This document shows positions 30,110 through 47,363 of a DNA stretch of 64,000 bases, one piece after another (position 1 is the stretch's first letter; the number at the start of each line of letters is the position of its first letter). Origin of the DNA: Myxacorys almedinensis A. Lineage in GTDB: Bacteria; Cyanobacteriota; Cyanobacteriia; Leptolyngbyales; Leptolyngbyaceae. The position numbers were made by a program, and so were the translations under genes. Below the pieces are notes generated by a model. The model was not told the DNA's origin, did no database searches, and saw nothing but the letters and a program-made list of their open reading frames with translations. The stretch is from positions 1 to 64,000 of the forward strand of contig NZ_WVIE01000026.1 in assembly GCF_010091945.1 (NCBI RefSeq). Direction: 5' to 3'.

Positions 30110-30258
30110 ACGAAATTTCCCCTATCGATGAAAGATGGCGATATTTGGTTTTAGGGATTGTACCTTGAGTTTGCAGAACTGGCGAGAGCGAAAGAAAGAG
30201 GCAAGACGTAGCAAGACGCACCCTTAGTTAGCTGCGCTACCGTTAGCAAACCTATTGA

Positions 30259-30690
30259 GCAACAGGGTCGGGTGGCGCGATTGAACAGGTAAAAAGTACG
30301 GTGCAAGATAATTTGAGCGAAGACATGGTGGCATATCAGATTGAGAACGCTTCCGGACAGGCGGTGGGACAGCACACATTAACAGGAAGTGGAACCTTTG
30401 CTCAAGCGATCGCAGAACTCGCTCTTAGAAATACAACGCTGACACAGGAAAAGGCGTATAACGGGTAAAATTATCACAGCCTTTCCAGAGGCAAATTTCC
30501 TCTCGCTTTCATTAGCTTCAGTAGGTTGAATAACTGCTAAAGCCGATCAAGCCGAGGCAGCAATTATGGAACTATAGGAACGACGGGGAACGGATGAACT
30601 TTCTCGTAAGCAAACCTTGCTTGATCGATTAATCGATTTTATTTTTGATACGGAACCTAGCGCAGACCTTCCTTCATTGCCTTTTCCATC
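30259..30690 (+). pseudogene. Decayed protein-coding gene of unknown family
   Basis: Protein-like sequence runs through this spacer but is broken. Frame 1 (30259-30468) reads DMVAYQIENASGQAVGQHTL and AQAIAELALRN before TAA. A one-base shift at the G/A run around 30463-30470 lets it continue as KIITAFPEANFLSLSL to a TGA (30527-30529). It goes on as ITAKADQAEAAIMEL to a TAG (30575-30577), then [20 protein letters not shown] and on to about 30690. The joined reading is helical and non-repetitive in character, unlike random translation of spacer DNA. I do not know the family. An intact short protein from ATG 30325 (about 47 residues) is the alternative. Decay is inferred from the composition of the frames only. 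Confidence 0.4.
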
Positions 30691-30809
30691 GTCTATCTCG
30701 CGTTTCAGAACTAAAATTGTATCTATTTGTATATGCTCTGCGACCAAGACCTGTCGTTTTTGCTATGGTAGAATTTCTGTCAAATGAGCATAGGCAAGGA
30801 TTTTCAGGC

Positions 30810-31133
30810 ATGTCAGCAGCCGCACAAGTTACAGACTCAACCTTCGACCAAGAAGTGCTGCAAAGCGAGGTTCCCGTTTTAGTTGATTTCTGGGCACCCT
30901 GGTGTGGTCCCTGCCGCATGGTAGCGCCTGTGGTAGATGAAATCGCCGCGCAGTTTGAGGGCAAGGTCAAGGTCGTTAAAGTCAACACCGACGACAATCC
31001 CAGCATTGCGAGCAAATACGCCATCCGTAGCATCCCGACTCTGATGATCTTCAAGGGTGGGCAGCGCGTGGATATGGTCGTCGGTGCTGTTCCTAAGACA
31101 ACGCTATCAAACACGCTAGAGAAGTATCTCTAA
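30810..31133 (+). CDS. trxA: Thioredoxin
   Basis: A 107-residue thioredoxin from ATG 30810, with AAGGA (30796-30800) nine bases upstream; the open frame extends 55 codons further but that part is unlike the family. The active site is WCGPC in [16 protein letters not shown], and the cis-proline loop is SIPTLMIF. Protein disulfide reduction in the cytoplasm and regulation of Calvin-cycle and peroxidase enzymes are the usual roles in cyanobacteria. The glutathione peroxidase-like gene earlier in the window is a likely client. A clear terminator follows. Confidence 0.95.
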
Positions 31134-31185
31134 GTCAAACTTGATCTCTGTCCTTTCAAGCGTCGTCATCAGTTACAAGATTTAG

Positions 31186-31214
31186 CGCCTTAGTTTTTTA
31201 GCTGAGGCGTTTTT
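31186..31214 (+). terminator. Rho-independent terminator of trxA
   Basis: CGCCTTAG (31186-31193) pairs with CTGAGGCG (31202-31209), one wobble, followed by TTTTT (31210-31214). It is 53 bp after the trxA stop codon. Confidence 0.85.
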
Positions 31215-31284
31215 CAGTAACGACGAGATCTTACAGCCCCTGAAAATCTCGACTAAAATAAAGTGCCATCGCGTGGAGGAGTTC

Positions 31285-32403
31285 ATGGCTGTTGATCCTT
31301 CGGATCTTGCAAAGCAGAATCCTTTTGAGATTCATAGAACAGATCGATCACCAATTGATCTTGAGGCGCTCCGAGCATCGCTAAACGCCTTGATTGATCA
31401 CTTGCCGAAGCTAGAGCACGGGGATCTAATTGCTCAAGCGTTGAGTATGATCACTCGGGTGGCTGGCGAAGACATCGATCGCTTGGACTGGAAGATTCTC
31501 AATGCCTCTGTTCAGGATATGGAACGGGCGTTTACCACGTTCTACCCCTACCGCCATGTTCGGAAGATTGCTATTTTTGGGTCTGCCCGGATTCAGCCCG
31601 GTACCGATGAATATGAAATGGCCAAGGACTTTGCTCAGCGTGTTACTGCTCAAGGTTATATGGTGATTACTGGAGCAGGCGGCGGCATTATGCAAGCTGG
31701 AAACGAGGGAGCAGGAGCCGAAAATTCGTTTGGTCTTAACATTCAGCTACCGTTTGAGCAAGGTGCGAATCTGTTTATCCAAGGTAATCCAAAGCTGGTT
31801 CCGTTTAAATATTTTTTTACTCGAAAAGTTTTCTTCTTAAAGGAAAGCGATGCGTTGGCGCTATTTCCAGGGGGCTTTGGCACGCAGGATGAGGCGTTTG
31901 AGTGCTTGACGCTGACTCAGACTGGAAAGGCGGCACCGGTGCCGTTAGTGCTGATTGATAAACCGGGAGGAAACTACTGGCACGATTGGGCGGAATATAT
32001 TGATAAGCAGCTATTAAAACGTGGCTTGATTAGCCCTGACGATCCGAGCCTGTATACCTTAACGGATGATTTGCAGGTTGCGAGTGATGCGATTTCTAGC
32101 TTTTATCAGGTGTATCACTCTAGCCGCTATGTGGGGGCACATTTGGTGATGCGGCTGAAATCGGAGTTGTCGGATGCTGCCGTTGAAGAACTCAACGATC
32201 GCTTTAGCGATATTTTAGTGAAAGGCAGAATCGAGAAAACTAGGGCATTGTCAGAAGAGAAACAAGACGAAACGGTTGATTTACCCCGTCTGATGCTTTA
32301 TTTCAATCAGCGAGATTTGGGGCGGCTTTACCAACTGATTCGGGCGATTAATGTGCTGGGCACGCCTTCGGTAGAAGACTCGGCGCATCCAGAACGCAAG
32401 TAG
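31285..32403 (+). CDS. LOG family protein (TIGR00730-like)
   Basis: A 372-residue protein from ATG 31285, with GGAGG five bases upstream. The central domain has the LOG motifs: IAIFGSARI, GAGGGIMQAGNEGA and PGGFGTQDEAFE, which form the nucleotide-monophosphate site of cytokinin-riboside phosphoribohydrolases. An N-terminal helical extension of about 90 residues and a C-terminal extension of about 80 distinguish it from short LOG proteins of about 180-200. The family was long mis-named lysine decarboxylase. The likely activity is hydrolysis of a nucleotide 5'-monophosphate to base and ribose phosphate; the substrate is unproven. Confidence 0.85.
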   Translation: MAVDPSDLAKQNPFEIHRTDRSPIDLEALRASLNALIDHLPKLEHGDLIAQALSMITRVAGEDIDRLDWKILNASVQDMERAFTTFYPYRHVRKIAIFGSARIQPGTDEYEMAKDFAQRVTAQGYMVITGAGGGIMQAGNEGAGAENSFGLNIQLPFEQGANLFIQGNPKLVPFKYFFTRKVFFLKESDALALFPGGFGTQDEAFECLTLTQTGKAAPVPLVLIDKPGGNYWHDWAEYIDKQLLKRGLISPDDPSLYTLTDDLQVASDAISSFYQVYHSSRYVGAHLVMRLKSELSDAAVEELNDRFSDILVKGRIEKTRALSEEKQDETVDLPRLMLYFNQRDLGRLYQLIRAINVLGTPSVEDSAHPERK

Positions 32404-32506
32404 GCAACAGTGGCGGCAGATTTGGGTGCGGCGGCTTTGGTGGCGGATGTGGAGGATTGTCCCTTTGGGTGTATCCGTCCTTTCCGCGTGCCGCCCGGTC
32501 GCCGGG

Positions 32507-33973
32507 TTAGTTCATCACCCAGTTGACTAACGTTCTGACGCCGTATCCCGTTGCACCTGCGCCGTTATAGCTATTTTCCTTGTCTGCCCACACGGGACCT
32601 GCAATATCGAGGTGTGCCCAAGGGGTCTCTTTAACAAACTGTTTGAGGAAGATTGCAGCCGAGATTGCGCCGCCTGCCCGAGCACCCGTATTCTTCATGT
32701 CGGCAATGCCTGATTTCATGCTCTCGAAGTATTTCTCTTCCATGGGCATTCGCCAGAGTTTTTCGCCGGCTTGTTCAGAGGCGCTGACGAGTTGATCAGC
32801 AACTGCATCATTTGGACTCCATAATCCGGCGATGCTGTCGCCCAAGGCAATGACGCAGGCTCCGGTTAAGGTTGCCAGATCGACGATCGCATCGACTTCT
32901 AACGTTTCTGCAAACACGAGAGCATCTGCCAGGGTGAGGCGTCCTTCGGCGTCGGTGTTGTTGATCTCGATGGTTTTCCCATTGGAAGCGGTGAGAATAT
33001 CACCGGGGTGAATGGCATGACCGCTGATCATGTTCTCTGTCGCGGCGATGATGAAATGCACTTCGACATCGGGTTTGAGTTGCGCGATCGCTTTGGCGGC
33101 TCCGAGGGTTGCCCCTGCACCGCCCATATCGGTTTTCATCATTTCGATGCCGCTGCCTGCGCCTTTGATGTTGAGACCTCCAGAGTCGAAGGTTAGACCT
33201 TTGCCGATGATCGCGACTTTCTTGCGCGCCGTTCCTTCTGGTTTGTAGGTTAAATGAATGAATTTGGGGGGCAAATCGGACGCTTGAGCAACGCCTAAAA
33301 AGGCTCCCATACCCAATTTTTCACAGTCTTCTTTTTCAAGAATTTCTGAGTGCAAGCCAAATTCTGATGCGATCGCGCTTGCCGTTTCCGCCAGGGTCAC
33401 CGGCGTTACATAATTTGCCGGAGCCGCGACCAAGGCTCTAGCTAAAAATACGCCAGAGCAAATTTTATGAGCTTTCGCGATCGCGTCATCTTGTCCGGCT
33501 AATTCTAATAACTCGATCTGCTCGATCGGCAGACTGTCATCGGGTTCTGACTTAAACCGACGATCTTGATACAGCGCAAGCTCAACGCCTTCTGCGATCG
33601 CTTGGGCACTAGCGGCAGCATCGTCATTCACAACCGGTAAATAAATGCCCACGGTTTTGCAGCGATTGCGTTTCGCCAGTTTGGCGGCGGTAGCTCCTGC
33701 CCGTCTGAGACTTTCTAGCGTGGCGGTTTCTGCCTTACCAAGCCCGACCAAGATCAGTTTGCGAAAGGGACTGCCGGTGATCCGAGTTGAAGCGCTACTG
33801 GCAGATTTGCCCTTAAAGTCTGTATCGGTGATTAAATCTTTTAACGCGCCTGACAGCTTATTGTCTAAGATTTCTAAGGTGCCTGTGAGGTCAGTTGCGC
33901 CCTCAAATATGCCAATCGCTAATCCCTCTCCTGCCCACTCTAAGATCGAGGTTTCCGTTGCTCGTAAATTCAT
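32507..33973 (-). CDS. pepA: Leucyl aminopeptidase
   Basis: A 488-residue M17 metallopeptidase releasing N-terminal residues from peptides in the cytoplasm. The N-terminal regulatory domain is followed by a catalytic domain containing [15 protein letters not shown] (metal-binding Lys/Asp), [23 protein letters not shown] (the family signature) and [10 protein letters not shown]. Length is normal (about 490-500). It converges with the LOG gene and diverges from the lytic transglycosylase gene; it is monocistronic. Confidence 0.96.
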
Positions 33974-34286
33974 CCAGTACTACCTTTTATTGGGTTCAAT
34001 CACTGGTTTCTAGTATTGCTTAAAACTGAACAATGAGGCGGCATCTCAAAGGGGCAAATCGCCGGACTGGCTAGAAAAGAATTTAAGTATTTAAAGTTAT
34101 ATTGAGTACTCTAGAAGTTTAGAGTTCGGTATATGTAATTAGATGGTAAAAGAGAGGGGATTGAGCAATGATGGTGCTGCATTGTTGCGTCAAGTCTCAA
34201 TACCGCTCCATGTCACGAACAGATTGATTTTTGCTATAACTGCTAACAGCTTGTGAGATTTTACCCAACCCCCTGGGAGATAATCG
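33974..34286. other. Divergent promoter region between pepA and the transglycosylase gene
   Basis: A 313-bp A/T-rich spacer holding both promoters. The only structure I see is a 6-bp hairpin ACTCTA (34108-34113) with TAGAGT (34120-34125). No open frame or RNA gene stands out. Confidence 0.4.
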
Positions 34287-36470
34287 ATGGTGATGAAAGA
34301 ACGGAAGGTTTGGATTTCACTGGCAGTCGGAGCCGGGGCGCTAGCGCTCGTGTCAGGCGTAGTATTGCCAATCGAGAAATTGTTAAAGCAAGACGCTCAG
34401 CCGTCTGCGGATTTGGGAGCACCAGAAACCGTTAGCTCTAAGCCAAACACGATCGGCGCACCGGGCAAAGTGGTTAGCCCTTTGGTAGCGCAGTCTGCTC
34501 AACAACGGGCGGGAACGCTGGAAGCCGTGGTCAACAAGCGTGATGCGTCGTTAGAGCGAAACCGCGCTCGGTATATGCTGGCGAGCGATTTGGTGGCGCA
34601 AGGGCAAGGCGAGAAAGCGTTAGAGCCGTTGAAGAATTTAGAGAATGATTATCCTGTGTTAGCGCCGCAAATTTTGCTCAAGCGTGCCCAAGCTTATCAG
34701 GCAGCAGGCAGGCAGAAGGACGCGATCGCAGCGTGGCAGGAGATCGTGAAGCAGCATCAGGGCGATCCAGCCGCCGCCGAAGCACTATTTTTATTGGGAA
34801 AAAATAATCCAAACTATTGGGATCAAGCGCTGACTCAGTTTCCGGCGCATCCGCGATCGCTGGAAATTGCCAAACTTCGCTTTCAGAAAAATCAAAAGCA
34901 GTTGCCCGTGCTGCTAACCCTGGCAAAATATGGCGTAGACACCAAAGGCTATACCCAGATTCTCGACAAGCTGACCAGCGAGTTTGCGTCTCAACTCAAG
35001 CCTGCCGATTGGGACGCGATCGCCTTTGGCTATTGGGAAAACCTGGTTTACGACAAAGCCGCGATCGCGTATTCCCGTGCGCCCCAAACCCCCCAAAATG
35101 TCTATCGCTCTGGTCGAGGGCTGCATCTCACCGGAACTGCCGGGAGTGAGGCGCGCTATCAGCAAGTGGTGCGGCAGTTTCCCAAGTCTGAGGAAGCCGG
35201 ACTGGCGCTGATGCGGTTGGCAAGCCTTGCAGATACGCCGCAAAGTGCGATCGCATACTACGATCAGGTGGCTCAGCACTTTCCGAGCCGGGCGGCTGAA
35301 GCGTTACTGGAAAAGTCGAAAAAACTCGACACGCTGAATAGCGCCAAAACCGCAGCGATGATGCGACAACTCGTTTTGAGCCAGTATGCCGACTCGAATG
35401 CAGCGGCTGAGATGCGATGGACGTATGCCCAAGATCGCGCCAAGGCAGGCGATCTTAAACTTGCCAGAGAATGGGCAGCCCCGATTCTCAAGAGCCGCTC
35501 TAAGAGCGACATTGCTGCCCAAGCTGGATTTTGGGTTGGCAAGTGGTCTCAGCGCCTTGGTCAAGACGAAGTGGCAAAGGAGGCGTATGAGCAGGTGTTG
35601 AAGCAACATCCGGAGTCTTATTATGCGTGGCGTTCAGCCGGGATGCTGGGCTGGAATGTCGGCGACTTTAGCACCGTACGATCGCTCAATCCGCCTGTGC
35701 GAAAGCCTGCTGCCCGTCCAGAGTTGCTGGCAGGATCAGACGCGATGAAAGAACTCTACCAAATGGGACAAGACCGCGATGCTTGGGCATATTGGCAGGT
35801 TGAGTTTCGAGATCGCACCAACCCAACGGTGGCAGAGCAGTTTACCGATGGCATCATGCGGTTGGGGATAGGAGATAACTTAGACGGCATTTATATGGTG
35901 TCGAGTTTGCGCGATCGCGAGACGCCTGAAGATCAAGAACACTACCAGCACCTCGTGCAACAGCCCGCCTACTGGCAAGCGCTCTATCCCTTCCCATTTG
36001 TTGAAGAGATCGAAAGTTGGTCTCAACAGCGCCAACTCAACCCGATGCTCGTCACAGCGTTGATTCGCCAAGAATCCCGGTTTGAGCCTAACATCCGCTC
36101 TAGTGTTGGAGCCGCAGGGTTGATGCAAGTCATGCCCGAAACCGCCTCTTTTATTGCCACTAACATCAAGCTGAAGGAATATAAGCTCGACGATCCGCAG
36201 GACAATATCAACCTGGGCACCTGGTATTTAGATCACACCCATCAAGAATACGCCAACAACTCAATGCTTGCGATCGCCAGCTACAATGCTGGACCGGGCG
36301 CGGTTGGGGGGTGGGTCAGCAAGGCTAAAACTCAAGACGCTGATGAATTTGTCGAGCAGATTCCCTACCAGGAGACGCGAGGCTACGTGAAATCGGTTTT
36401 GGGCAACTACTGGAACTATATGCGGCTGTACAATCCTGAGCTTTCGCAACGGCTGTCTCAACTGTCTTAA
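34287..36470 (+). CDS. Soluble lytic murein transglycosylase (Slt70 type)
   Basis: A 727-residue envelope protein. One N-terminal hydrophobic segment (about 9-27) acts as signal or anchor. A long superhelix of TPR-like repeats (about 80-520, e.g. LEPLKNLENDYPVL, YDQVAQHFPSRAAEAL) precedes a C-terminal lysozyme-like domain. The catalytic Glu is in LIRQESRFEPNI, followed by SSVGAAGLMQVMPETA and IASYNAGPGAVG. It cleaves glycan strands to 1,6-anhydro-muropeptides during growth and recycling. The start at 34287 or at the next ATG (34293) is not resolved. It is monocistronic with a strong terminator. Confidence 0.93.
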   Translation: MVMKERKVWISLAVGAGALALVSGVVLPIEKLLKQDAQPSADLGAPETVSSKPNTIGAPGKVVSPLVAQSAQQRAGTLEAVVNKRDASLERNRARYMLASDLVAQGQGEKALEPLKNLENDYPVLAPQILLKRAQAYQAAGRQKDAIAAWQEIVKQHQGDPAAAEALFLLGKNNPNYWDQALTQFPAHPRSLEIAKLRFQKNQKQLPVLLTLAKYGVDTKGYTQILDKLTSEFASQLKPADWDAIAFGYWENLVYDKAAIAYSRAPQTPQNVYRSGRGLHLTGTAGSEARYQQVVRQFPKSEEAGLALMRLASLADTPQSAIAYYDQVAQHFPSRAAEALLEKSKKLDTLNSAKTAAMMRQLVLSQYADSNAAAEMRWTYAQDRAKAGDLKLAREWAAPILKSRSKSDIAAQAGFWVGKWSQRLGQDEVAKEAYEQVLKQHPESYYAWRSAGMLGWNVGDFSTVRSLNPPVRKPAARPELLAGSDAMKELYQMGQDRDAWAYWQVEFRDRTNPTVAEQFTDGIMRLGIGDNLDGIYMVSSLRDRETPEDQEHYQHLVQQPAYWQALYPFPFVEEIESWSQQRQLNPMLVTALIRQESRFEPNIRSSVGAAGLMQVMPETASFIATNIKLKEYKLDDPQDNINLGTWYLDHTHQEYANNSMLAIASYNAGPGAVGGWVSKAKTQDADEFVEQIPYQETRGYVKSVLGNYWNYMRLYNPELSQRLSQLS

Positions 36471-36496
36471 CTAATTTGTTGTCTTAACTAATTTGT
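36463..36496 (+). repeat. 17-bp tandem duplication at the transglycosylase stop codon
   Basis: The unit GTCTTAACTAATTTGT occurs at 36464-36479 and again at 36481-36496, period 17 bp. The first copy contains the TAA stop of the transglycosylase gene, so the second copy lies just outside the coding region. Confidence 0.85.
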
Positions 36497-36514
36497 AACA
36501 ACTTGTTAAGTGAT

Positions 36515-36547
36515 AAAAGCTTTCTCTGCATCCTAGAGAAGGCTTTT
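36515..36547 (+). terminator. Rho-independent terminator of the transglycosylase gene
   Basis: AAAAGCTTTCTCT (36515-36527) pairs with AGAGAAGGCTTTT (36535-36547) over 13 bp with one wobble pair, ending in a TTTT arm. It lies 45 bp past the stop codon. The rest of the spacer to 36770 shows no gene. Confidence 0.85.
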
Positions 36548-36770
36548 CTGTGTGGTTATAGTCAGCAAACCTTACCTCTGATAGATGTTAGAGCGATCGC
36601 GGCTCTATTCAACGGCGGCGGAACAGCTACGATCGCACCCCCGCCACAGGCTTTAAAACATGAAACTACACATTTCTTATATATTTTTGGTAATAAATCT
36701 GAACCAAAGTAGCAAAGTCTTAAACTGTTAGATAGAAACCACTTGTCTTATCGCTGATCGCACACTCACC

Positions 36771-39650
36771 ATGACTAACTCTGAACAAATTGAGAGTGTA
36801 ACGTCGCAAGTTGCAAATTCAGCCTTGCACCTCGAAACTGGTGTGCCTTTCAGAAGAACGAGCCAGCAGATCAAGGCAGAAATTGAGGCAGCCTTTGGGT
36901 TTGTTCCTCCCTTCTTTGAGCCAGCAGAATCGACGCCGCAGGTGCTAGAAAACATGTGGCAACAGACCCTGACTGCCTACGTCAAAAACCCATTACCCGC
37001 CCTATTTAAGGAGAAACTGTCTGCCTATCTGTCGCGCTTTTGTGCCGTTCCCTACTGCATGATCTGTCATAGCTGCACCTTGCGCCCGCTTGGGTTATCG
37101 GCACAACAAGTCCTAGAGTTGCTAGAAACCGCACCGCCGATCGAAACCGATGTCGATCAGCACCTCGCGCGACTTGCAGCCCAGCCCGCTCTTCTCCTTG
37201 ATGGGTCAGCGCTACCCTCAGAGTTAGAACAGAGCCTGCTCGCCTGCGCTATTTTTATTGCGCTAGAACACGAGCAAGCAGAACCCTATCGCCTCGAGCT
37301 ACGCCGAATTTTGGGCGTCGTCAACTATCAGTATTTGATCGTCTTCATTGCTTACGTAAAGACCTGTCATGTCTGGATGGAAGCATATCCCGAAGTGGCG
37401 TATGAAGCCGATCAGCGAGTGCAGAAAAATCTGAGTTTTCTCTTGGCAGACGAGCCTGCTTTAGCTGACTTTTTTCGCAACTACCGAGAACGAGCGAAAC
37501 GAGAATCTCAAAGCCGTGCAGAACAACTGGCAGAGTTTGCCGAACGGCAGCGCCAAGAAGAAGTGCTGCGTCAGCAGGTTGCCCAAGAGCGATTGGTGAT
37601 GGAAATTTCTCAACGCATTCGTCGATCGCTGAATCTAGACGAGATCCTCAGCACGGCTGTGGCAGAAGTTCGGCAGTTGCTCGATGTTGATCGGGTATTT
37701 ATCTATCGGTTTGAACCGGATTGGAGCGGCATAATTGCTGTGGAATCCGTTATTGCTGAATGTCTGTCGATCGAGGGAACCCGAATTACGGACTCGTTTT
37801 TTGTCCAACCTGCGACTCGTGAGCTTTATAAACAGGGGCGGATTCAAGCCATTTCGGATATTGATAGCGAAAACCTGTCTAACTGCCACCGTGACTTGCT
37901 TGCTCGTCTCCAAGTGCGCGCCAACGTGGTGGTGCCAATTGTGCAAGGTGAGCAGCTATGGGGCTTGCTGGTTGCCAACCACTGCTTGGCTGCCCGACAA
38001 TGGCAGGCGCTAGAGCTTACCTTGCTTCAGCATTTGGCCACACAGTTAGCGATCGCGATTCAGCAATCTGGGCTTTACCAACAAGTTCAAGCCGAGCTTA
38101 GCGAACGTCGCCGCTCAGAGGAAAAAATTCGGGAACAAGCGGTGCTCCTTGATGTGACGACCGATGCAATTTTGGTTCTCAACCTAGACAATCAAATCTT
38201 ATTTTGGAATAAAGGAGCGAACCAACTCTACGGTTGGTCAACGGCTGAAGCTCTGACCATGAGTGCCCGCGATTTGTTAGGGCAAAACCCTCCCCTTCAG
38301 CTTGAAGAGATTCAGAAAATGGTGGTGGAGACCGGCAAGTGGCAAGGTGAACTGCCTCAACTGACCAAAAACGGTAAGGAAGTTTTGGTAGAAAGCCGTT
38401 GGACATCGGTCATGGCAGAGGGGCAACTCACCTCGATTCTGGTTGTGAATACTGACATTACTCAGAAGAAACAGCTTGAGCGGCAGTTTCTCCATGCTCA
38501 GCGCCTTGAGAGCCTGGGTACGCTGGCGGGAGGCATCGCCCACGATTTGAACAATATTTTGACGCCCATTCTTGCGATCGCGCAGTTGCTCCAGCTTAAA
38601 CTGGGCGATATGGATGAGTCTACCCAACGGTTTCTGAAGATGCAGGAAACCAACGCTAGACGGGGTGCGGCATTGGTTAACCAGGTGTTGTCGTTTGCCC
38701 GAGGAGCCGAAGGCAAGCGCGTCAAACTCCAGGTGCAGCATCTGCTTTTAGAGCTAAAGCAGATTATCGACGGAACCTTTCCCAAAGCGATCGCCCTCCG
38801 GATGGACTTGGAACCCCACCTTTGGGTAACGTCAGCAGATGCGACCCAACTGCATCAAGTGCTGATGAATCTTTGCGTCAATGCTCGTGATGCGATGCTG
38901 GAGGGCGGTACGCTCAGCATTTCTGCTAAAAATCTCCTCATCGATCACACCTACGCCCAAATGAATCTGGCGGCGGAGGCAGGGTCTTACATTGTTATTT
39001 CTGTCGCAGATACGGGAACGGGCATCGCACCTGAGGTAATAGATAGAATTTTTGAGCCATTTTTCACAACAAAAGAGGCGGGCAAAGGCACAGGGCTAGG
39101 GCTGTCAACGGTGATTGGCATTGTTAGAAATCATGGGGGATTTGTCAATGCCTACAGCGAACCTGGGCAAGGCACTGAATTTAAAGTGTATTTGCCCGCC
39201 GTGCAAGGTGCGGAAATGCAGCAAATAGACCAGTCTGAACCGCTTTTGGGCAACGGAGAACTCGTGCTGGTAGTAGACGACGAGGTGACGATTCGGGAGA
39301 TTACGAAAGCGTCATTAGAGACCTATCGCTATACCGTCTTGGTTGCCAATGATGGCATTGAGGCAATTGCGCTCTATGCCCAGCACAAGGACAGAGTGAG
39401 CGCTGTTTTGATGGATATGATGATGCCAAATATGGCGGGTTTAACCGCGATCGGCATTTTGAGGCGCATTAATCCGTTAGTCAAGATTATCGCGGTGAGT
39501 GGATTGTCTTCGACCGAGAAAGTGACAGCAGCCATGGAGGCAGGGGTGAGCGCCTTTTTGTCTAAGCCCTACACGGCTCAAGAACTGCTGAAAACCCTGG
39601 ACTCGGTGCTGGTCAAGACGAAAGTTCCACAGCATGCCTCAGAGGTCTAA
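36771..39650 (+). CDS. Hybrid histidine kinase with AhpD-like, cyanobacteriochrome GAF and PAS domains
   Basis: A 959-residue soluble sensor. Residues 1-210 resemble an AhpD/carboxymuconolactone-decarboxylase fold with a cysteine cluster: C91, C96, C99, H100, C102 (a CxxC at 96-99). A coiled coil (about 240-275) leads to a GAF domain (about 280-435) with YRFEPDWSG and Cys372-His373 in LSNCHRDLLARLQVRANVVV, the canonical bilin-attachment position of cyanobacteriochromes; the DxCF motif is DSFF, so a second cysteine is absent. A PAS domain (about 455-565), HisKA with H591 (GGIAHDLNNI), ATPase (NLCVNARDAM, DTGTGIAPE) and a C-terminal receiver (LVVDDE, VLMDMMMPNMAG, SKPYT) follow. It starts at the ATG following CACC. 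Signal and partner are unknown; bilin binding is inferred from one motif. Confidence 0.85.
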   Translation: MTNSEQIESVTSQVANSALHLETGVPFRRTSQQIKAEIEAAFGFVPPFFEPAESTPQVLENMWQQTLTAYVKNPLPALFKEKLSAYLSRFCAVPYCMICHSCTLRPLGLSAQQVLELLETAPPIETDVDQHLARLAAQPALLLDGSALPSELEQSLLACAIFIALEHEQAEPYRLELRRILGVVNYQYLIVFIAYVKTCHVWMEAYPEVAYEADQRVQKNLSFLLADEPALADFFRNYRERAKRESQSRAEQLAEFAERQRQEEVLRQQVAQERLVMEISQRIRRSLNLDEILSTAVAEVRQLLDVDRVFIYRFEPDWSGIIAVESVIAECLSIEGTRITDSFFVQPATRELYKQGRIQAISDIDSENLSNCHRDLLARLQVRANVVVPIVQGEQLWGLLVANHCLAARQWQALELTLLQHLATQLAIAIQQSGLYQQVQAELSERRRSEEKIREQAVLLDVTTDAILVLNLDNQILFWNKGANQLYGWSTAEALTMSARDLLGQNPPLQLEEIQKMVVETGKWQGELPQLTKNGKEVLVESRWTSVMAEGQLTSILVVNTDITQKKQLERQFLHAQRLESLGTLAGGIAHDLNNILTPILAIAQLLQLKLGDMDESTQRFLKMQETNARRGAALVNQVLSFARGAEGKRVKLQVQHLLLELKQIIDGTFPKAIALRMDLEPHLWVTSADATQLHQVLMNLCVNARDAMLEGGTLSISAKNLLIDHTYAQMNLAAEAGSYIVISVADTGTGIAPEVIDRIFEPFFTTKEAGKGTGLGLSTVIGIVRNHGGFVNAYSEPGQGTEFKVYLPAVQGAEMQQIDQSEPLLGNGELVLVVDDEVTIREITKASLETYRYTVLVANDGIEAIALYAQHKDRVSAVLMDMMMPNMAGLTAIGILRRINPLVKIIAVSGLSSTEKVTAAMEAGVSAFLSKPYTAQELLKTLDSVLVKTKVPQHASEV

Positions 39651-39680
39651 CCCTAGACGATGGGATCAAACGCTGGATGG

Positions 39681-40079
39681 TTAAATAAACAAGCTGGGTG
39701 AGATATGAAAAAACTCACCCAATGCTTTAGCTTGTGCTTTGCTAATCGATCGCTTTCCATTCACGATTTCTGAAACGACGCCGCTCGATCCAACAATGCC
39801 AACTAAATCGGCTTGACGAGTTCCGCTTGATTCTAAAATATGCTGAAGAATTTCATGCGGTGCAGGTTTGTCCATCGGATAAGTCTCAGTCTCATATACC
39901 TCGATCAACGTCACGACTAACTTGAGCAACGCTCGTTCTTCAGGAGTGTGGTTTTTCGCAAAGAAAAGCCGTTCTGCGATCGCTAACGCCTGATCGTACT
40001 CTTCTTCTGTCTCAATGACTTTAGGAGTCACCTCAGTCAGCAAATTGCGGTATGCATCCTTATCAAAAGTGAGGGTCAT
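39681..40079 (-). CDS. higA: HigA-type antitoxin with HTH domain
   Basis: A 132-residue protein. The C-terminal helix-turn-helix (about 85-132; GTRQADLVGIVGSSGVVSEI, NGKRSISKAQAKAL) is typical of HigA antitoxins that bind toxin and repress their own promoter. The N-terminal half (ETEEEYDQALAIAERL) is the family's dimerisation region. The reading frame is intact. It follows the toxin gene directly and would overlap its original 3' end by 17 nt if the toxin stop at 40123-40125 were sense. Confidence 0.9.
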   Translation of the reverse strand: MTLTFDKDAYRNLLTEVTPKVIETEEEYDQALAIAERLFFAKNHTPEERALLKLVVTLIEVYETETYPMDKPAPHEILQHILESSGTRQADLVGIVGSSGVVSEIVNGKRSISKAQAKALGEFFHISPSLFI

Positions 40080-40122
40080 CTTTCCATCTGTCTTTGTTAT
40101 ATTCGCTATGAGTTAAGAAGTA

Positions 40123-40368
40123 TTATCTGTAGTAAATCATTTGGTTTTCGTAGTTGATGCTGACAATTAATCGATAGTCATTGCCTTTAATGTTAAAGAT
40201 GGTAAAGTTTCCAACCGCTTCAGTCTCCTTGTAGATTTTACGAACTTCTTCTAAATTATTCTGCCATTTCGCTTTTTTGACAGTTGAGAGCCATGCCTCT
40301 ACTTGGTTCTTGACGTTGGGATACTGCTCAGCGTCTACTCGTAGATTCCGGTCTGTAATTAAATGCAT
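40123..40368 (-). CDS. higB: HigB-type toxin, truncated by an in-frame TAA
   Basis: An 81-residue HigB-like mRNA interferase (WLSTVKKAKWQNNLEEV, GNFTIFNIKGNDYRLIVSIN). It ends at YYR where TAA sits at 40125-40123. Translating on past the stop in the same frame gives YFLTHSEYNKDRWK and ends at a TGA at 40065-40063, 101 codons in all including the stop. This is the normal HigB C terminus (THxEYDK motif), and the reading then overlaps the higA start as expected. The truncation removes the conserved His/Glu/Tyr end, so the toxin is probably inactive. A point mutation or sequencing error in one codon would explain it. Confidence 0.88.
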   Translation of the reverse strand: MHLITDRNLRVDAEQYPNVKNQVEAWLSTVKKAKWQNNLEEVRKIYKETEAVGNFTIFNIKGNDYRLIVSINYENQMIYYR

Positions 40369-40484
40369 ATTCTATTTTTAAGTTTTTCATAATAATAAAT
40401 ATCAATCATGCTAAGTCCTCTCATTTTGAGAGGAGCTTGTCAAGAGTATCGATAGAATGATCAACATCTTTGCTTAAATTCTGT

Positions 40485-43400
40485 ATGTCTCGTTGGCAAT
40501 TTTGGATCGATCGCGGCGGCACGTTTACCGATATTGTGGCTCGGAAACCGGATGGCACTCTGGTGATTCACAAACTGCTGTCAGACAATCCAGAACGCTA
40601 TGATGACGCGCCTTTGCAAGGAATCCGAGATCTGCTTGGCATCGCACCCGATCAGCCTATTCCATCAGAACAAATCGAAGTCATCAAAATGGGAACGACA
40701 GTCGCAACGAATGCGCTGCTAGAACGCAACGGCGATCGCACCCTTTTAATCGTTACCCATGGCTTTCGGGATGCGTTGCGAATTGGATATCAAAATCGCC
40801 CCAATATTTTTGCCCGTGAGATTGTGTTGCCAGAGATGCTCTATGAGCGAGTGATCGAAGTTGAGGAACGCTATAGTGCCCAAGGCGAGGAGCTTTTACC
40901 GATTTCATCTGATGTAGAATTGCGATTGACCTTTGCATTACAAAAAGCGTTTGATTTGGGTATTTGTTCCTGTGCGATCGCATTCCTGCACGGCTACCGG
41001 TATCCGCACCACGAACAGCAGGTCGCCGCGATCGCGCACCGCATCGGGTTTACTCACGTTTCAGTTTCTCACCAGGTCAGCCCATTGATGAAACTGATCA
41101 GTCGCGGTGATACAACAGTGGTCGATGCTTACCTGTCGCCCATTTTGCGCCGCTATGTCGATCGATTGGCAAAGGCATTTGATCAGACGGCAACTCGACC
41201 TCGGTTGCTGATGATGCAGTCGAACGGTGGATTGACCGACGCCCGGTTTTTTGGGGGGAAAGACAGCATTTTGTCGGGTCCAGCCGGGGGAATTGTGGGC
41301 GCAGTGCAGACCAGCGATCGCGCCGGATTCACCAAAATCATCACGTTTGATATGGGCGGCACCTCGACCGATGTTGCCCACTACAACGGCGAATATGAGC
41401 GCACGTTTGAAACCGAAGTGGCAGGGGTGCGAGTGCGATCGCCGATGATGGCAATTCACACTGTGGCGGCGGGGGGCGGCTCGATCGTGCGGTTTGATGG
41501 CAGCCGCTATCGGGTCAGTTCAGACTCGGCGGGGGCAGATCCGGGACCGGCGTGCTATCGCAAGGGCGGGGCGCTGACCATCACCGACTGTAATGTGATG
41601 CTCGGTCGGTTGCAGCCCGATTTCTTTCCGCAGGTGTTTGGGGCAACAGGAGATTTACCGATCGATCCTGAAATTGTGCGCCAGAAATTTACCGAGCTTG
41701 CATCAGACATTGAAACTGCCACGGGAAACCCAGTGTTACCAGAAGATGTAGCACAGGGCTTTCTTGCGATCGCAGTGGAAAAAATGGCAAGTGCGATCAA
41801 AAAAATCTCGGTTCAGCGGGGTTATGACATCACCGATTATACGCTCTGCTGCTTCGGCGGGGCGGGGGGGCAACATGCCTGTGCGATCGCAGAGACGTTG
41901 GGCATCTCGCAAATCTTCTTACATCCTTATGCAGGGGTGCTTTCGGCTTACGGAATGGGACTTGCCGACCAGCGAGTATTGCGGGAATGTGCGATCGAGA
42001 AAGACCTCTGTGATGGGGTATTGCAAGAGCTTGAAAACCAGTTTGCGCGGCTGATAGCAGACGGAGAATCACAACTAAATCAACAAGGTGCAACTCCGAC
42101 TGATGTAATTCGACGAGTTCATTTGCGATATGTGGGAGAAGACTCAGCGTTGATTGTTGAAATGAATACTTTGGATCGTATAGTTCAATATTTTGAGGAA
42201 TGCTATCAACAACGATTTGGCTTTGTTTCACCAAACAAACCATTGGTGGTTGAGGCAATCTCTACAGAAACGATCTCAGCAACAGATTTAGCAATAGAAC
42301 CTGATCGTTCAATTCCTCGCACAACGTTGCTCACCCCTGTTGCAATAGAGCAGGTATACATTGGTGGTGCGTGGCAGGCTACCCCGATTTTTCGGAGAGA
42401 AGACTTGCGATCGCACGATGTTATTTCTAGCCCGGCTCTGGTGATCGAGCCGACGGGCACCAACCTTATCGAACCAGGTTGGCAAGCTGAAATGACTGAA
42501 CATGGACATCTCATTCTTCGCAACATTCATTGTTCGGCTGGAAACCATCACTCTTATGCGATCATTTCTACCAAGCCTGATCCAGTGTTGCTTGAGATTT
42601 TCAATTATTCGTTTACTGCGATCGCAGAGCAAATGGGCTTTGCCCTGCAAAACACAAGTTCTTCTGTCAACATTAAAGAGCGCCTAGATTTTTCCTGCGC
42701 CATTTTCGATCACCATGGTCAACTAGTTGCAAATGCTCCTCATATCCCAGTGCATCTCGGTTCGATGAGCGATAGTGTGATCGCTTTGGTTAATGCATAC
42801 GACAACGCATTTCAGCCAGGAGATGTTTACGTTTCCAACAATCCGTATAACGGTGGAACTCATTTACCTGACATTACCGTTATTACGCCCGTATTCACAA
42901 CCGCCAACGCTAAAAATTCTGCATCACCCTTGTTTTTCGTCGCCTCTAGAGGGCACCATGCTGACATTGGCGGAATCACCCCCGGATCGATGCCTCCCAA
43001 CAGCACCGCGATCGCTCAAGAAGGCATCTTAATCGACAATATTAAACTCGTCGATCACGGTCAATTTCAAGAGCAAGTCATGCTCGATTTGCTCACCCAT
43101 TCGCCCTACCCTGCCCGCAATCCTCAGCAAAATTTAGCGGATCTAAAAGCGCAAATTGCCGCCAACGAGCGCGGCGTGCAAGACCTCCGAACCCTGATCG
43201 CGCACTTCGGGTTAGACACGACTCAAGCGTATATGCAGCATGTCCAAACCAATGCCGAAGCGGCGGTGCGAAACGCTATTGAGGCGCTGCAAAACGGCAG
43301 CTTTACTTACAAAATGGATGACGGTAGCCAGATTCAAGTTGGTGTCACAATCAATTCTAGCGATCGCACTGCCACAATTGACTTCACCGGAACATCCCCT

Positions 43401-44132
43401 CAACAGCCCACCAACTTCAATGCGCCGCTAGCTGTCTGCAAAGCTGCCGTTCTGTATGTGTTTCGGACGTTGCTAGACGATGAGATCCCCCTAAATGCAG
43501 GCTGTCTTAAACCGCTAAACATCATCGTTCCAGAAAAATGTTTGCTTAATCCTACCTATCCTGCCGCGATCGTCGCTGGAAATGTTGAAACGTCGCAAGC
43601 CATAACCAACGCTTTGTATGGCGCGCTAGGAATGCTGGCTGCATCACAAGGAACAATGAATAATTTCACCTTTGGGAATCAACAGTATCAATACTATGAA
43701 ACAATTTGCGGTGGCTCTGGTGCAGGTTCTACGTTTGATGGAACCGATGCTGTTCAAACGCATATGACCAATTCTCGCCTCACCGATCCAGAAGTTTTAG
43801 AATGGCGATTTCCTGTCTTGCTAGAAGATTTTTCTATTCGTCCTGATAGTGGAGGTAAGGGTCTCTACCAAGGCGGAAATGGTGTTACCCGACGCATCCG
43901 ATTTCGGGAAGCAATGACAGCTGCTATTTTGTCAGGTCATCGCGTTGTTCAGCCGTTTGGGTTGCACGGAGGAGAACCTGGGCAAGTGGGACGAAACTAT
44001 CTTCAGCGTCGGGATGGTCAAATCAAGCTACTGGGCGGTAAAGCCGAAGTAGAGATGCAGGCTGGTGATGTATTTGTGATTGAAACTCCTGGGGGTGGCG
44101 GATTTGGCGAACTGCCGAAAACTGCTATCTGA
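40485..44132 (+). CDS. 5-oxoprolinase (ATP-hydrolysing), HyuA-HyuB fusion
   Basis: A 1215-residue enzyme from ATG 40485; a TTG five codons upstream is less likely because [18 protein letters not shown] is the conserved start. The N-terminal half is the HyuA kinase-like part ([44 protein letters not shown]), the middle has [20 protein letters not shown], and the C-terminal half is HyuB ([46 protein letters not shown]). It opens 5-oxo-L-proline to glutamate using ATP and so recovers glutamate from glutathione or protein breakdown. Length (usual 1200-1290) is normal. It ends inside the convergent transporter gene (8-bp overlap). Confidence 0.94.
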
Positions 44133-45027
44133 TTCCGGGCTGATTTGCAAAAACTTGTTGCTTCAACGTTGTGCAGGCTTGTTTGATGGCATCGATGCTA
44201 CCCGGATTGACCAATCCGTAGTAATCCAAAACATATACTCGATTATTGCTCACTGCTTTTAGTTGATTCCAAATCGGATTTGATTTAAATTGCTCAACCA
44301 CTCCTTCACCCGTACTCACCAAAATAATCACCTCTGGATTCACCTCCAGCACTTTCTCAGGAGAAAGCAGGGCATACCCTGAAAATTCTGCTCCGCCCTG
44401 AAGGTCTGCCGCCACATTTTTGGCACCAAAGCGAGCCAACGTATCTCCGGCCCAGCTTGCCTTATTGGGGGAAAGCAACGGCTTTGGATTGGCTAACACC
44501 AAGGTCGAAGGTGCCATTTTAGGAGCATCTGCAAGGAACGCTCGATATTCTTGCAACAATGGCTCAGGATCGGCGCTCAGCGTTGCCGCCAGGGTTGTTG
44601 TTAGCGTTTCCAAATTTTCCCAACTATTGACTTCGGTGAGCAAAGTCCGAATTCCTGACTCGTTCAATCGTTTTGCAACATCGGCATGAAAACTTGATGC
44701 CCCAATGACCAGATCAGGCTGGAGTGCCACGATCGCTTCCAAATTAGGACTGGTGCGCCCCTCGCTGACGGTAGGAAGCGCCTTAAAGCGCTGATCTTGT
44801 CTCAGGAGACTGCTTCCCGGAATGCCAACTAGTTTTTTGCCATCTAGTCGCTGCACCAGATCAGCCGTTAACGAAGTCAGGGCAATGACACGCGCTACAT
44901 TTGGCTGAGGAGTTGGCGTTACCGAGGCTGGGTTTGCGGGAGAATTTGAAGCCGTTGGAGGCTGCGAACAAGCCCCTAAGGCAAGACACAATCCCAAGCC
45001 AACCCATCGAAGCATCCAAGAGTTCAT
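44125..45027 (-). CDS. Periplasmic heme/iron-chelate binding lipoprotein (BtuF/HmuT type)
   Basis: A lipoprotein of about 300 residues (lipobox LALGACSQ) with two Rossmann-like lobes linked by a long helix, type III binding protein fold: [54 protein letters not shown]. It delivers its ligand from the TonB receptor to the ABC permease. Three ATGs stand in a row; the third (45027) is 7 nt after a perfect AGGAGG and is chosen. It is the last gene of the operon permease-ATPase-receptor-binding protein and starts just after the receptor stop codon. Confidence 0.87.
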
Positions 45028-45038
45028 CATCATACCTC

Positions 45039-47363
45039 CTAAAATTGTACCTTGAGACTGGCTGCTACACTGGTTCCTGGCTGTGTGTAGAGATCAAGAT
45101 TGCGATCGCTGCTGGTCAACCCGCGCACATCTCCATACCGGAAATATCTTTGATTGAACAAGTTATACACTCCAATGTTAAACAATACGTTGTCACTAAT
45201 GTTGTAGTACCCAAGCAAATCAACGGTTGTATAGCCTTTTGGCTCAAACTGATTGGGCGTTTCCGTCCGGTCGATTCGATCTTTGGCGGCAACGAGGGTG
45301 GTCACCAGTTGCGCGCCCCAGCGATCGTTGGGGGCTTGATATTTCAGCCCAACCACTGCCTTAAAGGGATCGACTGAGTTTAAGGGCTGATCGGTTTCGA
45401 GGTTGTTTCCCTCCGCAAATGCCAGCGCACTAAATAGACTTAACCCATCCGATCGACGGTTAAAGCGCCATTCACCCTTGGCTTCCACTCCATAAATTTC
45501 GGCTCCTTTTAGGTTCCGGGCTTGAAACTGCTGAAAGTTTTGCGCCCCAATAGGAACCGTGCCCACAAACACAGTATCGATAAAGTTTTTATATCGATTG
45601 TAGAATCCGGTGATGCCCAAGTTGGCTTGCAAAGAGTTGTAGCGCAGTCCGGCTTCAAAGCCGTTGCTGGTTTCTGGCTCTAGGTTGGCATTGGGTAAGA
45701 CGGTGTAGAACGCCGCAAAATTAGTAAATGCGATCGCGGCATCATTGTAAGGTGGGCTGCGAAACCCTCGTGCATACTGAGCAAATGCCGAAAGTTGTGG
45801 CGTGAGTTTTGCAACGATGCCAAACTTGGGTGACACTGAAGATGCTGCTAATGCCTCTACTTGATAATTGGCAGTGTTAATGCGAGCAAAATCAGCATCA
45901 TCGGAATTGGGATTAAGTTTGTAGTAGTCATAGCGAATGCCAGGGATCAAAGTAATTCGACCGTTTGCAAATTCAATTTCGTCTTGTACATAAATGCCAA
46001 GTTGAAAGGTATTGGTGTCAGGAAAAGTTTTATTGGGAAACTGTTCACCAAACACATTTTTAGTCACTGCGCCAGTCGTAAGGTTAAACTCTGTTGCGTC
46101 TCTAGGGCGAGAGGTGGCTGTGTTAAACAGATCAAACCCGTAGGTCAACCGATGGGAAAGGCTCCCAGTTTTGAAATTGCTTTGGATCTGAGTGTTGCCC
46201 CCAACGATCGCTTGACTGAATTCGTTTTTGGTAACTCGACGACGGCTAGAACTTCCGATTTGGCGCTGTTGTTCGCTGTATTCTGTGGTCTGAGCATCTT
46301 GGTAATAGATCTGCGATCGCACGTTCTGCACCCAGGCGCTATTCGGATTGTTAAACTCGTAGCCTAAGCTGATCCGTCCTCGCTTAGCATAGTCTTCGGC
46401 ATCTTGCCTAATCAGCCGCGAGCCAGGAGGTCCAGGAAGGGGACTTGCGGCGCTCAAAACTTGCGTATCAACTTGTCGATCGAAAAACTCTCCGGTCAGC
46501 TTCAGCGTATTAAAGTCATTCAGCCGATGCACAATTTTACCGAGAACGTTATTTCCATCTACGGTCTGAGGATTAGGATCAAGAGTACTATTGTTCTTAA
46601 CTTCATTTCCATCTCGGCGAGTGTACAGCAGCAAAACAGAGGTGTTGCCATCTTTTGCAGCAGTTGTAAACGTTTCAGACAAATTGTTGTCAACACTATC
46701 AAATGAGACTTTGCCGCTAAAATACGAATTTTTGCCAAAAATATTGAGAAAGTCTTGAGGATCTTTTGTAATGTAGGAAACTACGCCCCCGATCGCATCG
46801 CTGCCATACAGCGTAGAGGCTGCACCTCGAATGATTTCGACCCGTCTGAGGGCATCAAAATCAACGACATCGCGGCTTGTATTCGTCATGTTTAGAATAT
46901 CTGGAACTCGCACCCCATCTACCTGAATCAGGACACGATTTCCATCAATGCCGCGAATATTGAAACTAGAATTTCTGCCCCGAGTCGGACGGTTGCTAAC
47001 CGAAATTCCGGGTTCATAGCGAATCAAATCTTCAATATCTCGAACAAAATTTGTTTCGAGATCGGTGAGGTCAAAAACGGAAATGGTTCCGGCAGAATCC
47101 CGAACAGCACGGGGACTCCGAGTGCCCGTAACACTGATTTCCTCTTCAATTTCCTCTTCAATTTCTTCTTCTACTGTAAGAGGTGTTTGCCCTAGCAATC
47201 GAGCTTCCGTTGCAGGATGGGTGATGTCTTTGATGCGGGGAATACTCGATTGAGATTGTAAATTTGACTCAGAACTTGGCGTTGCGCTGGTTGCTTGGAG
47301 GGCAACAAAAAAGCTGGAAACCAAAACAGAAACAGCTTGAACTAACCGAAGGCTAACGATCAT
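45039..47363 (-). CDS. TonB-dependent receptor, heme/hemoprotein-type
   Basis: A 774-residue outer-membrane beta-barrel receptor. From ATG 47363, which overlaps the ATPase stop codon as ATGA (translational coupling), a signal peptide is followed by an N-terminal acidic repeat EEEIEEEIEEEI, a TonB box-like ISVTGT, a plug (DLETNFVRDIEDLIRYEPGI, GRNSSFNIRGIDGNRVLIQV) and the barrel ending in SLKVQF. The FRSP...LPNANLEPE segment corresponds to the FRAP/NPNL region of heme receptors, but no histidine lies between those motifs, unlike the classical members. An earlier ATG (47384) adds seven residues. The likely cargo is heme or a ferric chelate. Confidence 0.88.
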   Translation of the reverse strand: MIVSLRLVQAVSVLVSSFFVALQATSATPSSESNLQSQSSIPRIKDITHPATEARLLGQTPLTVEEEIEEEIEEEISVTGTRSPRAVRDSAGTISVFDLTDLETNFVRDIEDLIRYEPGISVSNRPTRGRNSSFNIRGIDGNRVLIQVDGVRVPDILNMTNTSRDVVDFDALRRVEIIRGAASTLYGSDAIGGVVSYITKDPQDFLNIFGKNSYFSGKVSFDSVDNNLSETFTTAAKDGNTSVLLLYTRRDGNEVKNNSTLDPNPQTVDGNNVLGKIVHRLNDFNTLKLTGEFFDRQVDTQVLSAASPLPGPPGSRLIRQDAEDYAKRGRISLGYEFNNPNSAWVQNVRSQIYYQDAQTTEYSEQQRQIGSSSRRRVTKNEFSQAIVGGNTQIQSNFKTGSLSHRLTYGFDLFNTATSRPRDATEFNLTTGAVTKNVFGEQFPNKTFPDTNTFQLGIYVQDEIEFANGRITLIPGIRYDYYKLNPNSDDADFARINTANYQVEALAASSVSPKFGIVAKLTPQLSAFAQYARGFRSPPYNDAAIAFTNFAAFYTVLPNANLEPETSNGFEAGLRYNSLQANLGITGFYNRYKNFIDTVFVGTVPIGAQNFQQFQARNLKGAEIYGVEAKGEWRFNRRSDGLSLFSALAFAEGNNLETDQPLNSVDPFKAVVGLKYQAPNDRWGAQLVTTLVAAKDRIDRTETPNQFEPKGYTTVDLLGYYNISDNVLFNIGVYNLFNQRYFRYGDVRGLTSSDRNLDLYTQPGTSVAASLKVQF
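47137..47172. repeat. 12-bp in-frame repeat, three copies, in the receptor gene
   Basis: ATTTCCTCTTCA at 47137-47148 and 47149-47160, and a third variant copy ATTTCTTCTTCT at 47161-47172, encode the EEEI repeat in the receptor's N terminus. The 12-bp period keeps the reading frame. Confidence 0.85.

Follow-up and report, generated by a model that had tools for sequence, protein, structure and literature searches.

Can a single protein weigh light against redox state? This question is raised by a gene of the cyanobacterium Myxacorys almedinensis A (RefSeq assembly GCF_010091945.1) carried by the first 64,000 nucleotides of contig NZ_WVIE01000026.1 (forward strand, hereafter called the window). 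The gene, an open reading frame (ORF) of 959 amino acids (aa) with an ATG start located at 36771-39650 (+), encodes a hybrid histidine kinase preceded by a GAF domain of the cyanobacteriochrome (CBCR) type and by a cysteine-rich N-terminal domain (hereafter NT). Cyanobacteria need to assess light and its oxidative by-products jointly, and one protein may do so here. Our broadest proposal, to which we grant somewhat less than an even chance, is that NT belongs to an undescribed family of modular sensory domains, in which an AhpD fold with a rewired active site, having lost the first cysteine of its CxxC and acquired a CxxCHxC motif and a distant cysteine, would provide a redox or cofactor input for kinases and for enzymes of cyclic di-GMP (c-di-GMP) metabolism. 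In one old lineage, this domain would have been tied to a red/green CBCR through a fixed helical linker, which would give a single-chain integrator of light times redox. The narrower reading of the window protein as a whole, i.e. a soluble two-input hybrid kinase with a redox input from NT and a light input from the CBCR, appears to us evenly balanced.

Pfam searches delimit in this protein a GAF domain (residues 288-430, E 1.6e-24), a PAS domain (459-563), HisKA (582-647), HATPase_c (690-810) and a receiver (Response_reg, 832-943). The last three all score over the Pfam cut-offs and define a hybrid histidine kinase. This order, with a cysteine cluster at the N-terminus, agrees with the original prediction made from the sequence of the window. 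Six of the ten cysteines of the protein (91, 96, 99, 102, 159, 199, 331, 372, 405 and 702) belong to NT. Residues 1-220 match no credible Pfam family (two unrelated matches, E 0.098 and 0.24), residues 1-235 match no NCBIfam model at E up to 1, and neither the Pfam family CMD (carboxymuconolactone decarboxylase, PF02627) nor the NCBIfam AhpD model recognizes the window NT. Since the window NT escapes these models, the proteins that carry it are likely annotated by their GAF, PAS or kinase parts only.

The AlphaFold model of NT, obtained from an alignment of 45 sequences, is all helical (pLDDT 90.2, pTM 0.84). According to VIA-align, its best matches are peroxidase-related AhpD proteins, with 2pfx at Z 14.1 (rmsd 3.2 over 167 residues) and 3c1l and 6k40 at Z 13.9, just above the value of about 13 under which helical folds can share a common arrangement. 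The top AhpD rows have rmsd of 3.2-3.4, and the first 13 rows correspond to proteins named AhpD or CMD in their titles, to a debrominase (Bmp8) or to proteins of unknown or putative antioxidant function. Furthermore, the hhalign comparison of 39 NT sequences with seven cyanobacterial CMD or peroxidase-related proteins gave 97.3% (E 2e-11), and 96.6% with L169-L172 alone, which had been retrieved with TIGR01926 rather than with NT. The controls did not exceed 4.9% for 20 column shuffles and 0.3% for the reversed, GAF and linker comparisons. NT hence combines the all-helical AhpD fold and the homology to CMD and peroxidase-related proteins that characterize the AhpD/CMD superfamily.

Sequence searches alone did not settle this point. 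With NT as a single query, 2ouw and 1gu9 were reached at E 0.03 and 0.15, and a designed repeat protein scored better (0.00036), a match that we take as chance. Profile A2, built without the distant sequences, gave no better than E 0.24 for 2ouw. Profile A1 reached it at 2.1e-8, a value that was not leaned on since A1 takes in the distant CMD-like proteins L010-L012. Among the 45 members of A1, 20 match TIGR01926 and four match CMD at E up to 1. Foldseek found no match of the NT model at E 0.001 or below, the best one being at 0.022 with a probability of 1.00. The assignment therefore relies on the VIA-align scores, on hhalign with its controls and on the alignment of residues, and the fold of NT is almost certainly AhpD-like. 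The AhpD-like region anticipated for residues 1-210 is thus recovered in the model of residues 28-224.

The active site of this fold differs from that of the known peroxidases. In the HMMER alignment of NT with AhpD from Mycobacterium tuberculosis (1gu9), Glu118 corresponds to E81, Cys130 to V93, His132 to Y95, Cys133 to C96 and His137 to H100. This alignment is ungapped between residues 78 and 122 and has an E-value of only 0.31; its register rests on agreement, since 2ouw (HMMER) and L010 (BLASTP, E 4e-11), a cyanobacterial CMD-like protein with a full CxxC, give the same one. Therefore, C96-x-x-C99 is not the CxxC of AhpD but a different pair, located one helical turn further on, and the idea that the cysteine cluster includes the CxxC of AhpD finds no support.

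Conservation was examined in 110 distinct NT domains, including that of the window, which remained from 153 rows after removal of 34 identical copies and nine rows under 120 aligned residues. Since C91, C96, C99, C102 and C199 are each kept in 90-103 of them, the cluster is conserved beyond chance, and 82 domains have all five cysteines together. Other positions are also kept, namely R89, Y95 and W202 (109 domains each) and H200 (105 domains). The window NT retains the Glu118/Cys133/His137 relay of AhpD peroxidases as E81/C96/H100. However, it lacks their catalytic CxxC (Cys130-Cys133), and none of the 110 domains has a cysteine at position 93. This loss is not peculiar to NT since the seven CMD-like proteins L010-L016, which were among the short rows removed, have Cys (L010), Thr (one) or Ser (five) at this position. 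Given that Val93 replaces Cys130 and that 20 of the 110 domains lack C96, a canonical two-cysteine peroxidase cycle is not expected from the sequence of NT.

NT is found with various outputs. The named genome collection contains 46 loci with NT relatives, all cyanobacterial by their record titles. When the window NT was used as a query, 16 of the 386 genomes of the phylum matched, nine of them strongly (E below 1e-19) and seven through distant CMD-like proteins (E 3e-7 to 5e-4). The NT profile detected relatives at E 1e-10 or better in 7 of the 42 genomes of the order of the window and in 49 of the 388 genomes of the order of G005. Pfam was run on 37 relatives, which include the same gene twice in a few cases and some frames that end with the locus. 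NT is followed by CBCR GAF-PAS-HisKA-HATPase-REC in 10 of 10 proteins of one batch and in L024. Other relatives show PAS-kinase-REC, several PAS domains and a kinase, or GGDEF, and in L041 and L050 NT is followed by GGDEF-EAL with no domain recognized in between at E 1e-5. In L086 (identical to L005), a GAF domain lies ahead of NT, which is therefore not always the first domain. Since NT is joined to unrelated outputs (histidine kinases, GGDEF and GGDEF-EAL), as sensory domains are, we are confident that it is itself a sensory domain.

Bacteria beyond Cyanobacteria were covered by a contig search with patterns of the window sequence and by plasmid and phage collections. A plasmid of Pseudomonas sp. 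HR96 (NZ_CP139142.1) encodes a 260-aa NT-like protein with 27.6% identity (L135 5974-7723), followed, after one in-frame stop codon, by an HWE kinase and then by a receiver gene. A search with this protein among plasmids retrieved only itself, and phage records gave no NT match. NT may thus be more widespread than these searches show. An unusual sensor-enzyme fusion was also encountered in L087 (2664-6686), where NT and PAS are joined to an acyltransferase and a glycosyltransferase in a single 1341-aa frame.

The second putative input of the window protein is, by its sequence, a one-cysteine CBCR-type GAF domain. Among solved structures, phmmer relates it to the kinase PPHK (6OAP, E 5e-46) and to miRFP670nano (2.3e-38). 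A model of residues 1-443 (pTM 0.51), was used for secondary structure and for this comparison and not for domain arrangement; its GAF aligns with bilin GAFs at Z 23-24, up to 24.3, the sequence identity being 50-53% with the PPHK series and 50% with miRFP670nano. These phmmer and structural scores place the domain in the bilin-binding phytochrome/CBCR type, and Pfam indicates PAS and kinase domains after it and no PHY domain. As anticipated, C372-H373 lies in the canonical bilin-binding place, where it aligns with the CH of 6OAP; the D..F positions are also kept. C372 is present in all 18 aligned fusion proteins, H373 being replaced by Tyr in one of them. Among the 23 distinct proteins with adjacent NT and GAF, C372 is found in all 22 that are readable at this position (the last one ends with its stretch), D341 in 22 of 22 readable GAFs and F343, at the position of the DxCF cysteine, in 21 of 22. 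The second cysteine of the DXCF subgroup is thus absent, the window protein having DSFF at residues 341-344, in agreement with the original prediction. Furthermore, the same genome has one match to ferredoxin-dependent bilin reductases (E 2.9e-75) and 17 matches to the window GAF, its own included. The GAF domain very probably binds a bilin. Since a green-absorbing state (Pg) at 562 nm was measured for PPHK (PMC11480761, in excerpt), one would naturally expect a red/green photocycle with a single cysteine, which is probable. In the same genome, a 1437-aa frame (G000, contig C30, 8290-11046) with several matches to the window GAF in tandem is probably a multi-GAF photoreceptor.

The combination of NT and CBCR is not peculiar to the window genome but forms a conserved family. 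The gap between NT and GAF measures 51-52 residues in 22 of the 23 direct fusions and 49 in the other, and largely consists of the predicted helix 238-284 (pLDDT 54-79 as block means). A quick tree with a midpoint root and SH-aLRT support only was drawn from 107 NT domains, the other three of the 110 being too short. In this tree, 22 of the 23 CBCR rows fall inside one set of 26 rows (SH-aLRT 95), and the CBCR label changes four times, against a mean of 21.1 after shuffling. The other four rows of this set (L031, L038, L117 and L118, from Calothrix where named) have NT and a kinase without GAF, L031 being NT-PAS-HisKA-HATPase-REC by Pfam. Their nesting looks like a loss of GAF with NT kept. 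Because these four members keep NT and kinase without GAF, NT does not simply accompany the light sensor. The lone CBCR row outside the clade, L165, has neither C96 nor C99, and its GAF carries Cys-Tyr. Essentially, the NT-CBCR proteins go back to a single old fusion whose linker is fixed.

From the domain order, both folds, the conserved residues, the fixed linker and the recurrence of NT as a module, all read from sequence or models, we infer a mechanism whose bilin attachment, colour, redox chemistry, direction of kinase control and downstream partner are conjectural. The first input would come from NT, an AhpD fold without the two-cysteine peroxidase cycle, which keeps E81/C96/H100 and gains C91, C99, C102 and C199. 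It would most likely read oxidants or thiol redox through reversible oxidised or disulfide states around C96. The second input would come from the one-cysteine, probably red/green CBCR GAF with its bilin on C372. A single helical spine, made of the predicted helix 238-284, the GAF and the PAS domain, would receive both inputs and set the autophosphorylation of H591 and the transfer to D882. The best supported form of this mechanism asks only that light, through the bilin, and some chemical state of NT converge on this spine. Concerning the earlier suggestion that one protein could sense light and thiol redox, the AhpD fold and the one-cysteine CBCR-type GAF speak for it, whereas the AhpD CxxC on which it drew is not there. 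If NT is indeed a redox input, the fields of light and redox signalling would be joined on one polypeptide.

Several observations weigh against the redox part of this mechanism. Among the 20 NT domains without C96, 18 keep C99 and C102, one keeps only C102 and one has none of the four cysteines. Fifteen of them (L008, L136-L140 and L142-L150, not L141) have Phe or Leu instead of C96 and all keep C99 and C102; 13 of these form one clade (SH-aLRT 96). The remaining five (L021, L091, L101, L128 and L165) are scattered. Conversely, C91 and C96 are kept but C99, C102 and C199 are missing in L151-L153 and in the Pseudomonas protein. These sequences indicate that the AhpD-type reactive cysteine is not needed in every NT. 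In addition, no obvious operon partner accompanies the window gene, and a thioredoxin gene found upstream of it is separated from it by other genes and missing in 15 of the 18 neighbourhoods. The AhpD-type cysteine and the new pair are each absent from part of the family, in contrast to the nearly universal Y95, H100 and W202, and we therefore put the sensing of thiol or peroxide state by NT at about even odds. All 11 domains without C91 also lack C96 and all seven without C102 also lack C99, which hints at two cysteine pairs (C91/C96 and C99/C102). Many of these losses follow clades and thus represent few independent events. Natural variants with or without C96, C99/C102 or GAF are ready controls for what NT senses.

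The alternative that survives best is that NT senses a small molecule in a pocket around R89, Y95, H100, H200 and W202, the cysteines being secondary, as for leucine sensing by the AhpD fold of Sestrin2. These five residues are steadier than any cysteine (at least 105 of the 110 domains), and leucine-bound Sestrin2 (5dj4) aligns with the NT model over 148 residues (rmsd 3.6), but its Z of 8.1 is middling for a helical fold. The likeness is one of role only, Sestrin2 being a eukaryotic protein that binds leucine and has neither kinase nor bilin. Moreover, this explanation does not tell why four to five cysteines are so strongly retained, and we consider it unlikely, although it and the metal centre discussed next are still serious contenders.

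NT could also hold a metal centre (iron-sulfur, zinc or heme) bound by C91/C96/C99/C102/C199 and H100, which would sense redox, oxygen or metal. The five cysteines kept together in most domains would suit such a centre, C96-x-x-C99-H100 is formally a CxxCH heme motif, and the cyanobacterial kinase Hik2/CSK has been reported to carry a redox-responsive [3Fe-4S] cluster (PMC6949291, in excerpt). However, 28 of the 110 domains are without at least one of the five cysteines (C199 being unread in one of them), often as lineage-specific subsets, and the loss of either C96 with or without C91, or C99, C102 and C199, ill suits one four-ligand site. The attachment of a c-type heme is unlikely on established grounds, no export signal being visible by eye. 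Because the cysteines vanish in subsets, an iron-sulfur cluster is ranked behind thiol chemistry, and a metal centre of any kind appears rather improbable. It is more doubtful still that NT is a dimerisation or structural cap without sensing, which would make the protein functionally just a CBCR kinase. AhpD-superfamily proteins are, as far as we are aware, oligomers, but NT precedes c-di-GMP enzymes with no other recognized domain (L041 and L050), persists in proteins without the GAF and shows tight conservation of its polar and cysteine site. Finally, an active peroxidase of the AhpD type attached to a light sensor would fit the fold and the kept E118/C133/H137 equivalents but is highly improbable, as the Cys130 equivalent is absent from all 110 domains and C96 from 20.

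Compared with known systems, the redox and light sensor proposed here shares parts with several proteins. PPHK from Leptolyngbya sp. JSC-1 (6OAP, 6OAQ and 6OB8; Z 23.2-23.6), the nearest solved relative of the GAF by sequence, is a dual-sensor histidine kinase that likewise has one canonical cysteine and two inputs on one kinase. However, its other input is named phosphorylation-responsive in the excerpt of PMC11480761 and is not AhpD-fold. The peroxidase-related AhpD proteins (2pfx, 3c1l, 6k40 and 2prr; TIGR01926) share the fold of NT (Z 13.8-14.1 over 167-168 residues) and its active-site Glu, second Cys and His. Unlike them, NT lacks the first cysteine of the CxxC, has the additional C91, C99, C102 and C199 and is fused to signalling domains. 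AhpD from M. tuberculosis (1gu9 and 1knc, Z 7.3-7.4, the latter value for 1knc) has E118/C133/H137 in common with E81/C96/H100 of NT, but C130 and H132 where NT has V93 and Y95.

The open-licence literature searched here contains no paper with both 'cyanobacteriochrome' and either 'AhpD' or 'carboxymuconolactone decarboxylase'. This is in line with the original statement that no described AhpD-CBCR fusion was known, although absence from print is not thereby shown. Among the matches listed by broader searches, no title or beginning of abstract describes such an AhpD-fold sensor domain. Neither 'cyanobacteriochrome' nor 'AhpD' occurs in a 2026 review of cyanobacterial redox signalling (PMC13421787), and the excerpted text of PMC8846402 has no occurrence of AhpD, carboxymuconolactone or peroxid.

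Table 1. Features of the window gene and of related loci (window positions unless a locus is given; counts refer to the 110 NT domains)
Feature	Position	Strand	Basis or conservation
Whole gene, NT - signalling helix - CBCR GAF - PAS - HisKA - HATPase - REC hybrid kinase	36771..39650	+	959 aa
AhpD-fold N-terminal domain, probably sensory, residues 28-224	36852..37442	+	AlphaFold, VIA-align, hhalign
E81, aligned with Glu118 of M. tuberculosis AhpD	37011..37013	+	E in 108/110
C91, not in AhpD	37041..37043	+	C in 99/110
V93 in place of Cys130, the first cysteine of the AhpD CxxC	37047..37049	+	Cys in 0/110
C96, aligned with Cys133 of AhpD	37056..37058	+	C in 90/110
C99-H100-S-C102; H100 at the position of His137 of AhpD, C99 and C102 new	37065..37076	+	C99 100, H100 107, C102 103 /110
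C199, CHxW motif, long helix 183-205 (AlphaFold)	37365..37367	+	C in 101/110
Signalling helix between NT and GAF, predicted to be continuous over residues 238-284	37482..37622	+	model of residues 1-443
CBCR-type GAF	37632..38060	+	Pfam, phmmer, structure match
DSFF at the DxCF position (residues 341-344)	37791..37802	+	alignment
C372-H373, expected bilin attachment site	37884..37889	+	alignment to 6OAP and relatives
PAS domain	38145..38465	+	Pfam
HisKA, H-box AHDLNN (H591)	38514..38711	+	Pfam, motif
HATPase_c	38838..39200	+	Pfam
C-terminal receiver, likely phospho-acceptor D882	39264..39599	+	Pfam, motif
ETR1_N kinase, REC-GerE regulator and lone receiver	L024 3328-5923, L029 3462-5912, L035 2516-5873, L036 2915-5873	strand of kinase	Pfam

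The window gene is preceded by a TPR-Slt transglycosylase gene (34287-36470), which ends 300 bases before it, and followed by a small ORF on the minus strand (39681-40079) and then by a 5-oxoprolinase gene (40470-44132). The small ORF has no Pfam match at 1e-5; its product resembles a HigA-type antitoxin. Scans for promoters and terminators around the window gene remained at chance level. Neighbourhoods were compared between 17 named NT-CBCR loci and positions 30001-46000 of the window, clusters present in three or more being counted. In the window, a thioredoxin gene (30645-31130, +; Pfam E 6.7e-35) lies 5.6 kb upstream of the kinase gene, with three other genes in between. Thioredoxin genes are also found about 3.6 kb upstream of the kinase in L035 (1921-2301, E 4.3e-29) and L036 (2301-2681, E 4e-29). 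This association, seen in 3 of 18 neighbourhoods, is suggestive at most and could be due to chance. The largest cluster of true neighbours covers five loci, but its member in L025 is a different protein (CHASE3-PAS). In the other four of the 17 loci (L024, L029, L035 and L036), the NT-CBCR gene follows, on the same strand, genes for an ETR1_N kinase, whose N-terminus is ethylene-receptor-like, a REC-GerE (LuxR-type) response regulator and a single receiver. In these four loci only, the upstream genes are candidates for an operon or output pathway, which would associate an ethylene-type input with the light and redox inputs. In addition, a frame of 214-237 aa is common to the neighbourhoods of L043, L045 and L046.

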